Positions 38,225 through 40,615 of a DNA stretch of 62,254 nt are shown piece by piece. A model generated the notes under the pieces. That model saw only the letters and a program-made list of their open reading frames with translations. It was not told where the DNA came from and ran no database searches. The number at the start of each line of letters is the position of its first letter. The first letter of the stretch is position 1. The position numbers and the translations under genes are program-made. The stretch covers positions 1 through 62,254 of the forward strand of contig CANRLR010000017.1 in the NCBI GenBank assembly GCA_947631505.1, in the 5' to 3' direction. Origin of the DNA: an uncultured Lachnospiraceae bacterium (lineage in GTDB: Bacteria; Bacillota; Clostridia; Lachnospirales; Lachnospiraceae).

Positions 38225-39112
38225 TTATGGTTCTAAACGATGGATATCTCTTGGAAACAGAGCTGCCTGACGAATGTTTTCCATACCTAAAAGTTTTGCC
38301 GTAAAGCGTTCAAGGCCAAGTCCCAGCCCGCCATGAGGCGGTATGCCATACCGATGCATCTGCAGATAACTCTCAAAAAGTTCAACATTCATCTTCCTCT
38401 TTTTCATTTTTTTCACCTGTTCTGAATAATCGTGAATCCTCTGTCCACCGGTCGTGACCTCAAGTCCCCGGAACAAAAGGTCAAAGCTTTCGGTTGCGCC
38501 GGGTTCCTGTTTGCTGTCCATAGCATAGAAAGGACGTTTTTTACTTGGATAATGGGTAACAAATACAAATTCACACCCTGTTTTTTTATACATCCATTCA
38601 CATAACAGTTTCTCTTCCTCCGGCTCAAAGTCATCAGAAACCAAAATCTCCCTTTTATATTCCTCTGCTACCAACTGCTTTGCTTCGGAAAAATGTACCG
38701 AAGGAATTTCCTGTATTACCGGCAGATCCACTTGTAATAGCTGCAACTCCTGCCTGTAATTTTGCTCGAGGTACAAAAACATGTTCTGGATCATTCTCGT
38801 TTCCATCTGCATAATTTCCTCAAAATTCCGTATAAATCCCATTTCAAAATCTACACTGGTATATTCATTCAAATGTCTGGAAGTATCGTGCTTTTCTGCG
38901 CGAAATCTCTTGAAGTTCTTTCAACGAAAAATCGGCTCTCTCACTAGTATAAATACACTGTAAGATCTCCCGTTTCGTCCGAAGTAGAACAAAAGCAAAT
39001 CCTCTCATTTTTCGGATTTTGTAAATGCTGCCATGAATCTGTATTTTTTTCCAATATACTCCAATAAATTTTCTGCCTCTACGATTACTTTATCTCTTCT
39101 TTCCTGAATCAT
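38225..39112 (-). pseudogene. aspS2: Broken archaeal-type aspartyl-tRNA synthetase gene (aspS2)
   Basis: Three pieces of one enzyme lie in three frames. First, an ATG at 39112 with AGGAAAAA upstream gives 23 codons ending EYIGKK. Second, after a one-base slip in a run of seven A, the anticodon-binding OB-fold continues as IHGSIYKIRKMRGFAFVLLR to KELQE (about 38913). Third, after an apparent internal loss of roughly 140 codons, the frame changes again to FRAEKHDTSRHLNEYTSVD. It then runs intact through FVFVTHYPSKKRPFYAMDS, FRGLEVTTGGQRIHDY and PPHGGLGLGLERF to the end at 38225. That C-terminal half is diagnostic of the archaeal-type, often non-discriminating AspRS that charges tRNA-Asp and tRNA-Asn. 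Motif 1 and part of the active site are gone, so no functional synthetase can be made. Confidence 0.88.
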
Positions 39113-39272
39113 TTTTTCCTCACTTTCCACCACACTATATTTGTAGCAAGAACACGTCAACCGTTACAATCTGTTCTATTATCCGTGAGGACATCGTCTT
39201 TATGTCCCATACAATCACAACCTTTCCCCAACATAACGGTACCAATCACTTGTATGGGAATTATCAAAATAC

Positions 39273-39314
39273 AAAAAAACCACACAAGCTGTCAAAACAT
39301 ACCTCATGTGGTTT
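39273..39314 (-). terminator. Terminator of the aspS2 leader (segments 4 and 5)
   Basis: On the minus strand AAACCACATGAG (39303-39314) pairs over 12 bp (two GU) with CTTGTGTGGTTT (39277-39288), with a 14-base loop, then seven T. It lies about 160 bases before the aspS2 start codon, and segment 4 can alternatively pair upstream. Confidence 0.85.
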
Positions 39315-39389
39315 CCTTATCTCTATTATTCCACACAGGCACAACACATCAAGCGGTCGTACCTGTGATGGTTACAGATACAACCGCTA

Positions 39390-39434
39390 TCAATCGTCGT
39401 CCCTGTTCAGTTTATGAAACGAAAAACAATTCAT
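39390..39434 (-). CDS. Leader peptide of 14 residues ending Asn-Arg-Asp-Asp-Asp
   Basis: The ORF reads MNCFSFHKLNRDDD and is preceded by AAAGGGGAAAAGCT, a fair ribosome binding site. Three consecutive Asp codons (GAC GAC GAT) lie directly before the stop, and an Asn codon two before them. Segment 1 of the attenuator begins two bases after the stop. The product itself probably has no function beyond positioning the ribosome. Confidence 0.7.
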   Translation of the reverse strand: MNCFSFHKLNRDDD

Positions 39435-39460
39435 AGCTTTTCCCCTTTTTCTTTTTGAAA

Positions 39461-39489
39461 AGTATAACACACTGTTTTTCTCATTGCAA
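39461..39489 (-). promoter_or_regulatory. Promoter of the aspS2 leader
   Basis: TTGCAA (39484-39489) and TATACT (39461-39466) with a 17-base spacer on the minus strand; it starts just after the stop codon of the upstream gene. Confidence 0.8.
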
Positions 39490-39496
39490 GAACTTT

Positions 39497-40582
39497 TCAA
39501 TTCACTTTTCTGATATTACTAATGGTACACAACTCACCGGACAAAGCAAAACAAACCGGCAAATCTGTTGAACTAGGAACAACCATATAAGTGGTTACGA
39601 TTACACCACAATTCTCCTGTTTCAATGTAATCGTATCTCCCTCGCGAACTGCTGTGACCGAACATTTCACACCCTTTTTATTTGCTGCCAGCCAGTCTTC
39701 CCACGAAGTCCAGTCATCAGAAAACTCTGCTTCAAAAGAAAAATCATCTGCATTTTCTTTCCATCCATACGCATCTGAGCGGGTAACACTATATTCCGTA
39801 TATGCCACACCATTTACACTCTTATCCAGTGCTGAGAATAAAACAACAAACGGAGTATGCCAGCCTTCTTTTGCCTGCTGATAACTAACACTATTAAAAT
39901 TAAGTGTAATTGGCTGTTCTTTGATTTCAATTCCATCGGAATGATTCGTCCACCAACCAGGACAATCCAAATTAGGAAAATCTCCCTGTGTTTGCGGCAT
40001 TACTGGCTTTTTCACGGAAACAGGTGTTATTGCCCCCTCCCCGATTGGCTCTGCATCCCACATTGGAACAAAATCTGACAAAGTACATCTCTCGCCTGTC
40101 AATGCAAAATAGACATTCTTACCTGCATCTTCTGGCAAAGTTACTGTTGCGGAAACAACAACCCCTGCATTTTCCAAGCGAATCATAACATATTTCTCAT
40201 AACGGACCGCCATAACATTACAGATTGTTCCTTCCTTATTTTTGGCAATCCATTCCTCCCAAGTATTCCATTCACTCAAATGCTGGCTCTCATATTGATA
40301 TGCTTCTGCCAACCCCTTAATTCCATACGCATCCGAACGAGTAATACAATATTCCTTATAATGGTTTGCTAATACCATGCCTCTCTGCCCATCCACTTTT
40401 CCATCATCGGATGAATACAATACTACGGATGGTGTATGCCAGTTCTTATCTGCATCTGCCATTGAGACATTTTGGTAAGTAATGGTAACAGGATAATCCG
40501 TTAGTAATATACCTTGTGTATATTGCTCACCGAATTCCCTGCAGGATACCATTTCCATCCCCATTAAATCCTTATCTTTCAT
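39497..40582 (-). CDS. Two-repeat protein of unknown family
   Basis: 361 residues from the ATG at 40582 (AGGAGG eight bases upstream). The protein consists of two related halves of about 150-170 residues. Each contains: a strand with PxT(I/L)xxxxVS; W-HTP-(S/F)VVL-(Y/F)S; Y-x-x-(Y)-x-(I/V)TRSDAYG; W-x-(T/S)WE-(E/D)W(I/L)A-x-NK-x-G; C-x-V-x-AVR; E-N-(A/C)-GV-(I/V)V; and FALSGE-type endings with CT(I/L)S. No signal peptide, no membrane helix. The repeats look like beta-sandwich, possibly carbohydrate-binding, modules in the cytoplasm, but this is a guess. It has its own promoter. Confidence 0.75.
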   Translation of the reverse strand: MKDKDLMGMEMVSCREFGEQYTQGILLTDYPVTITYQNVSMADADKNWHTPSVVLYSSDDGKVDGQRGMVLANHYKEYCITRSDAYGIKGLAEAYQYESQHLSEWNTWEEWIAKNKEGTICNVMAVRYEKYVMIRLENAGVVVSATVTLPEDAGKNVYFALTGERCTLSDFVPMWDAEPIGEGAITPVSVKKPVMPQTQGDFPNLDCPGWWTNHSDGIEIKEQPITLNFNSVSYQQAKEGWHTPFVVLFSALDKSVNGVAYTEYSVTRSDAYGWKENADDFSFEAEFSDDWTSWEDWLAANKKGVKCSVTAVREGDTITLKQENCGVIVTTYMVVPSSTDLPVCFALSGELCTISNIRKVN

Positions 40583-40615
40583 ACGCACCCCCTCCTTCAT
40601 GTAATTGTTATCTCA

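Follow-up and report, generated by a model that had tools for sequence, protein, structure and literature searches.

A predicted ribosome-mediated attenuator with an aspartate-codon leader peptide ahead of an auxiliary aspartyl-tRNA synthetase gene in Lachnospiraceae, and its codon-swapped relatives

Ribosome-mediated attenuation is classical in the trp and his operons of enterobacteria. The aminoacyl-tRNA synthetase genes of Firmicutes are usually considered to be controlled by the T-box, which binds tRNA directly and has no leader open reading frame (ORF). An auxiliary tryptophanyl-tRNA synthetase (TrpRS) of Streptomyces, studied by Vecchione and Sello in 2010, is said to be under ribosome-mediated attenuation. 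Ribosome-mediated attenuators of amino acid operons are described in PMC9413887, among them His-codon attenuators that control the his operons of Eubacteriales, Erysipelotrichales and the B. cereus group, and PMC2965389 describes hisS* and hisZ genes of Bacillus that are preceded by His leader peptides. The subject here is a leader on the minus strand of a 62,254-nucleotide stretch from an uncultured Lachnospiraceae bacterium (GenBank assembly GCA_947631505.1, contig CANRLR010000017.1, positions 1 to 62,254), the whole of which is called the window. The conclusion reached, with a probability of about 0.88, is that this leader is a ribosome-mediated transcription attenuator, predicted to sense the charging of tRNA-Asp and to control an auxiliary aspartyl-tRNA synthetase (AspRS), and that it is one of a set of leaders in which the codon run has been swapped.

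An earlier note, made from the letters of the window, had claimed an Asp-codon attenuator with a promoter of 17-base spacing, a short ORF ending in three Asp codons and six segments (0 to 5) closing with an intrinsic terminator, and each of these elements was located (Table 1). Leader peptide attenuators are recognised by a short ORF whose codon run matches the amino acid of the gene under control, and this is what was found. A TAG directly follows the TGA of the ORF, and among relatives the ending of the ORF is conserved while its first codons drift. The -35/-10 score was reached by 10% or fewer of the shuffles of a locus's own upstream sequence in 12 of the 23 leader loci checked. The fold of the window leader (-71.2 kcal/mol against a shuffle mean of -41.8; z -7.3) was as low in none of 200 shuffles, and its minimum-energy form has helix 0:3 enclosing 1:2, plus 4:5.

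Relatives were first sought by a DNA search of 99 genomes, among them that of the window. The core of the leader turned up in four congeners, whose peptides end NRDDD or NRDDDL, and one more match (27 bases, genome G011) was retrieved and left unused. RNA model R1, built from the window leader and its four counterparts, gave 23 leaders among 40 rows from 397 genomes of the family. Model R2, built from 23 leaders (22 Asp and the Asn leader of G124), gave 11 leaders among 41 rows from 392 genomes of the order. Model R3 took in His and Arg leaders besides Asp and Asn ones; it yielded 13 leaders in 23 rows from 392 order genomes and 22 in 28 rows from 391 class genomes. The window was counted in every search set and the genome samples overlap; the distinct leaders number 58, of which 30 are Asp, 19 His, 4 Arg, 4 Asn and 1 Pro. 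Without any His or Arg members R2 had already retrieved three His and three Arg leaders (E 1.2e-7 to 1.0e-4). That the arrangement was not due to chance, as had been claimed, is borne out by the recurrence of leader and ORF ending in 30 loci.

Rows were sorted by eye on sequence, and those dropped as non-leaders had no codon run and were mostly terminator hairpins. They made up 11 of the 40 rows with R1 (four of them without a locus; 6 further rows came from the same loci), 27 of the 41 with R2 (eight without a locus, of which one, in G077, was examined later; 3 same-locus rows), 6 of the 23 in the R3 order search (4 same-locus) and 2 of the 28 in the R3 class search (3 same-locus), the last also yielding a decayed leader without codons, L186 (G981:C85). 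Since dropped rows outnumber leaders at R2 E-values of 1e-5 to 1e-3, a model match alone is no evidence, and it is the codon run and the gene that provide it. The models include no part of the downstream genes, so that the match between codon and gene is an independent check. Matches to a pattern allowing two mismatches, in G003 and G020, lay inside genes and were judged to be chance.

As read from the sequences, the leaders differ in codon run and gene together: Asp with aspS, His with hisS, hisZ or hisG, Arg with argS, Pro with proS and Asn with an AspRS gene. All 30 Asp leaders stand ahead of an AspRS sequence, 26 of aspS2 type and four of aspS1 type, with broken genes among both (aspS2 in the window and in G239; internally deleted aspS1 in G015 and G031). 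The Asp-codon attenuator claimed for an AspRS gene proved to be conserved across many genera, and in the 26 Asp leaders of alignment A2 all three Asp codons show only GAC/GAT exchange; the leader of G063 has an Asp-Glu-Asp run. Each of the 19 His leaders precedes hisS (6), hisZ (10), hisG (1) or a C-terminal hisS-like remnant (2; E 5.6e-6 and 1.2e-6), argS lies behind three of the four Arg leaders, and the Pro leader, ending CPSPS, is ahead of proS. Three of the four Asn leaders (LNNGYNI; L164, L165 and L166 in G944, G1100 and G983) precede an AspRS gene and were counted as cognate because that AspRS is presumed to feed Asn-tRNA. At L164, the one of these three loci scanned with lax thresholds, a T-box lies between leader and AspRS gene (90.5 bits, cut-off 93, E 1.2e-20), with a specifier that appears from alignment to be AAC. 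A cognate gene or remnant thus follows 56 of the 58 leaders, or 53 of the 58 if the three Asn leaders before AspRS genes are excluded. The NCBIfam cut-off was passed by all three hisS genes tested, by the single hisG, argS, proS and AspRS genes tested and by one of two hisZ genes, the other reaching 227.5 bits against 271.65; the remaining genes were named through similarity to those scanned. The internally deleted synthetases behind leaders L016 and L018 (aspS1, G015 and G031) and L169 and L184 (hisS-like, G878 and G829) have open frames.

The Asp-Asp-Asp run is also an acidic run near the end of the ORF. In leaders of the MgtL type the effect is one of the nascent chain, and here an acidic run might likewise destabilise or arrest the ribosome, the signal then being ions or the peptide rather than tRNA charging. 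Such an acidic effect would not predict His, Arg, Asn and Pro leaders before matching genes, and this explanation is judged extremely unlikely.

Base pairing was counted on the 23 rows of alignment A3, which is A2 (27 leaders) minus the long-insert leaders of G202, G237, G420 and G183, and covariation scores were compared with those of 500 shuffles, which leave relatedness in place. Three helices with scores reached by no shuffle are 1:2 (92% of cells paired, six pairs with changes on both sides), 2:3 (91%, seven pairs) and 4:5 (90%, eight pairs). The same was true of helix 0:3, with 87% of cells paired and both-side changes in three pairs and 10 cells. Its main pair joins the wobble base of the codon before Arg, C or U, to G or A in segment 3 (10 CG, 8 UA, 3 UG, 2 other), and two further pairs have one compensated leader each. 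Segments 0 and 2 are near-repeats, and by parsimony the linked positions in segments 0, 2 and 3 require 5, 7 and 6 changes. An attenuator is expected to show conserved helices that exclude one another, the last of them an intrinsic terminator, and such helices were found, with the antiterminator 3:4 the weaker. The Asn leader L045 (G124) also carries compensated pairs.

The consecutive pairings 0:1, 1:2, 2:3, 3:4 and 4:5 of the earlier note amount to a linear chain laid out as in the enterobacterial his attenuator, with 0:1, 2:3 and 4:5 in the OFF state against 1:2 and 3:4 in the ON state. Such a chain predicts the same regulatory sign, and complementarity between segments 0 and 1 can be drawn in the window. 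Against it, helix 0:1 has 68% of cells paired, a score reached by 74 of the 500 shuffles and two positions paired in none and one of the 23 leaders, and it exceeds 0.5 in none of 22 leaders in folded transcripts; it was rejected, whereas 0:3 has 87% of cells paired and compensatory changes. Of the claimed pairings, then, 1:2, 2:3 and 4:5 held, 3:4 held less well and 0:1 fell, and the linear chain is considered unlikely. Because segment 0 pairs with segment 3 and so encloses 1:2, the OFF state is nested and no serial chain.

In the attenuator so revised, segments 0 and 2 would compete for segment 3. Without a ribosome, segment 0, which covers the Arg-Asp-Asp codons, would pair with 3 around 1:2, and terminator 4:5 would turn the gene OFF. 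When Asp-tRNA is ample, a ribosome translating the leader would arrive at the stop codon, which borders on or lies inside segment 1, and would mask that segment; segment 2, thereby freed, would pair with 3, and the 4:5 terminator would again give the OFF state. When Asp-tRNA is scarce, an early stall in the Asp run would mask segment 0 and leave 1 exposed, 1:2 would form, and 3 would be free to pair with 4, blocking the terminator (ON). The claimed logic, by which a stall leads to ON, thus keeps its regulatory sign, while its serial OFF chain of 0:1, 2:3 and 4:5 gives way to 0:3 nested around 1:2.

Transcripts were folded up to segment 4 under a ribosome mask with assumed footprint sizes. When the A site held the first, second or third Asp codon, the median cost of freeing segment 4 was 5.3, 4.0 or 3.0 kcal/mol, compared with 2.5 and 2.4 at two stop positions and 3.4 without a ribosome. 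The cost at the first Asp codon exceeded that at both stops in 23/23 leaders and that without a ribosome in 19/23. Masking at the first Asp codon let 1:2 form in 23/23, and masking at the stop let 2:3 form in 21 or 23 of 23. In the model the ON state requires the ribosome to stall early among the Asp codons.

A duplex test across codon classes used fixed segment offsets and covered 55 of the 58 leaders, three with long 1:2 loops being omitted; an automatic hairpin finder often picked 2:3 over 1:2 and its segments were unused. On average the codon segments of each class bound the segment 3 of their own leaders more strongly than the segment 3 of any other class, with an advantage of only 0.3 kcal/mol in the Asn class. 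It is suggestive, if not clean, that the codon segment and segment 3 have changed together across codon types.

A number of observations weigh against the attenuator as proposed. Helix 3:4 has 80% of cells paired and two pairs with both-side changes, a score that 26 of the 500 shuffles reached, and part of it is compatible with 0:3. The support for 0:3 is largely that of one pair, which accounts for 8 of the 10 both-side cells, and sliding the helix by +2 columns gives 0.106 against 0.134, not far below. A tree-aware test of independent pairs found at most five, too few. The folding swing of the window leader itself is small (3.0 at the stall, 0.6 at the stop, 2.2 without a ribosome). A cruder measure, the mean of the five best pairs of 3:4, was above 0.5 in 18/22 leaders without a ribosome, in 15-16/22 at the first Asp codon and in 6/22 at the stop; on these counts it separates a stall from a stop, not a stall from the absence of a ribosome. 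In the duplex test Asp segments bound the segment 3 of Arg and Pro leaders (-17.1) better than that of other Asp leaders (-15.7), and a leader's own segment 3 ranked in the best 5% against other classes for only 20 of 55. Among the genes, the Arg codons of G660 precede no clear argS (a resemblance over 19 residues, E 0.28), the Asn leader of G124 (NGNNN) has a methylthioadenosine/S-adenosylhomocysteine (MTA/SAH) nucleosidase gene downstream, and the Pro class is one leader with two Pro codons.

The gene behind the window leader had been claimed to be an aspartyl-tRNA synthetase gene, and its kind is as claimed, with a match to NF003483, aspartate--tRNA(Asn) ligase (E 4.8e-85; 286 bits against a cut-off of 353, an incomplete gene piece having been scanned); its nearest named match is in a Lachnoclostridium, at 59% identity. 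It is not intact, since only query residues 24-73 and 214-441 were recovered, in two pieces and different frames, and the leader persists ahead of a broken gene. The same genome has an intact AspS2 at G000:C4 (open frame 445) with a T-box upstream (73.8 bits, under the family cut-off of 93; E 2.9e-16), whose specifier appears in the alignment to be AAC, for Asn, and which is followed by an ORF that we read as gatC-like. That the window gene is a pseudogene had not been foreseen, nor had the codon-swapped relatives or the separate clade of AspRS paralogues.

The comparison of paralogues divides aspS2 into two sets. The T-box motif was found at 28 of 30 other aspS2 genes and at none of 23 leader-linked ones, and the leader motif was absent ahead of all 30 others. 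Leader-linked and other AspS2 proteins form separate clades with a Shimodaira-Hasegawa-like approximate likelihood-ratio test (SH-aLRT) value of 100 by a quick method, in a tree of 53 of 55 chosen sequences (L140 and L089 failed a motif filter) in which 24 of the 30 'other' rows come from the window's genus. The leader set is predicted to act on tRNA-Asp and the T-box set in the making of Asn-tRNA. A further AspRS (either an aspS1, some 600 residues long and called by match pattern and frame length, or a second aspS2) was among the matches listed in 25 of 26 Asp-leader genomes, and none was among those listed for G106. In the part of PMC2494555 at hand, one of three aspS genes of C. acetobutylicum has a T-box, a precedent with which extra aspS copies differing in control would fit.

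T-box control of the paralogous aspS2 also lends something to another explanation, that the leader is a direct RNA sensor, T-box-like or a metabolite riboswitch, in which codon-like bases would be read by a tRNA or ligand and no ribosome is involved. A weak similarity to RF04312, the trpB motif and a riboswitch candidate, at 39369-39268 of the window (minus strand) points the same way, at 32.6 bits far under the cut-off of 59 and hence outside the family. None of 150 family genomes had RF04312 over the cut-off, and sub-cut-off matches in 5 of them (E 0.0017-0.0097, about 1.5 being expected at that threshold) were left unused. Against a direct sensor, the T-box motif is missing ahead of all 23 leader-linked aspS2 genes, and neither the T-box (RF00230) nor any other Rfam family matched at cut-off in the window. 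No Rfam family did so in 20 loci including those of 15 other leaders, which is weak evidence because the same cut-off misses the T-boxes of G000:C4 and L164. The start and stop of the ORF are kept while its first codons drift, and the codon run varies together with the gene. A direct sensor is accordingly held to be very unlikely, and the ribosome-mediated attenuator is preferred.

Downstream of the terminator and ahead of aspS2 there is another conserved short ORF, which contains Asp codons and has a long ribosome-binding site. Of the 30 Asp-leader genomes 15 have its pattern at the site of the leader, and 2 matches lie elsewhere in the 70 genomes searched; the hairpin just after its start codon has both-side changes in five of six pairs, a score reached by 0/500 shuffles (15 sequences: 14 Asp loci and G983). 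The three Asn-leader loci L164, L165 and L166 have a version of the element in which ATT replaces ATG. It may be guessed that this element is a second, translational layer of control. Upstream of the leader is a 367-residue ORF (window 39497-40600, minus strand) with an apparent repeated domain and no NCBIfam match.

Table 1. Coordinates of the leader, the second short ORF and the broken synthetase gene in the window
Feature	Position	Strand	Basis
-35 box TTGCAA	39484..39489	-	sequence reading
-10 box TATACT	39461..39466	-	17-base spacing from -35
Ribosome-binding site AAGGGG	39442..39447	-	7 bases 5' of ATG; sequence reading
Leader ORF MNCFSFHKLNRDDD, 14 codons, ATG 39434, TGA 39392-39390	39390..39434	-	
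Three Asp codons GAC GAC GAT	39393..39401	-	sequence and alignment
Segment 0 (codon segment), partner 3	39395..39406	-	0:3 covariation supported; 0:1 unsupported
Segment 1, partner 2	39374..39388	-	covariation
Segment 2, partner 1 or 3	39352..39367	-	covariation
Segment 3, partner 0, 2 or 4	39331..39346	-	covariation (3:4 weaker)
Segment 4, antiterminator with 3, terminator with 5	39302..39313	-	covariation
Segment 5 and seven-T run, 3' half of intrinsic terminator	39273..39289	-	sequence, fold, covariation
Second short ORF MGHKDDVLTDNRTDCNG (starts MGHKDDVLTD)	39157..39210	-	conserved pattern
Hairpin just after second-ORF start codon	arms 39207-39202 and 39194-39189	-	covariation
Broken aspS2 (N-terminal piece within 39160-38901; C-terminal piece 38911-38228)	38228..39160	-	homology

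What the set of leaders might mean can be put as follows, with odds that we take to be about even. The leaders would represent one homologous scaffold, of common descent across the codon types, that does with a ribosome what the T-box does by binding tRNA, and whose specificity changes when the codon run and its partner in segment 3 are exchanged together. The genes under it would for the most part be those of spare synthetases, unexpressed unless the housekeeping enzyme fails through shortage of the amino acid or a natural synthetase inhibitor, and this would explain the broken spare genes behind intact leaders. Codon-swapped attenuators on a separate AspRS clade would then constitute a second general read-out of tRNA charging in the same bacteria. 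The set offers natural codon-swap experiments for attenuation theory, leader codons would predict the tRNA charged by an orphan synthetase, and if spare synthetases escape natural inhibitors the leaders would mark candidate self-protection genes.

Among the known systems, the Shewanella aspS 5'-UTR motif, predicted and listed as a 'tRNA synthetase leader' (PMC2659441), can be set beside the window leader by description as a predicted regulatory RNA ahead of aspS; it belongs to another phylum, and the portion of that paper available describes no Asp leader peptide. The trpB motif RF04312, in the available text of PMC11109978 a hairpin whose right shoulder is a possible antiterminator followed by a terminator, has a hairpin-plus-terminator layout resembling segments 2:3 and 4:5. 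The published Firmicute His leaders likewise have His codons before hisS paralogues and his genes, and some of the present His leaders may belong to the same group, the agreement in codon and gene type being confined to the His members; the Asp, Arg, Asn and Pro versions and the shared scaffold are not described in the portions of PMC2965389 and PMC9413887 at hand. Leader peptide attenuation and Firmicute His leaders are thus known. Searches of an open library, from which subscription papers are mostly absent, gave no report of the nested layout or of synthetase genes in this group with Asp, Arg or Pro leader peptides, and these appear to be new.

With the attenuators of amino acid operons the present leaders share a leader peptide of regulatory codons, exclusive helices, an intrinsic terminator and a predicted ON state by stalling. 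They differ in that synthetase genes are controlled, that the codon segment pairs with segment 3 around 1:2, that the near-repeats 0 and 2 would compete for 3, and that the other aspS2 uses a T-box. The T-box (RF00230) is alike in reading out tRNA charging for synthetase genes through one codon-like specificity element, and here it belongs to the other AspS2 clade. The auxiliary TrpRS of Streptomyces is likewise reported to be a supernumerary synthetase whose leader peptide attenuator responds to the amino acid that the enzyme uses; that case concerns Trp and an antibiotic-resistant enzyme, whereas the present one concerns Asp, with no inhibitor known, and extends to several codon types.
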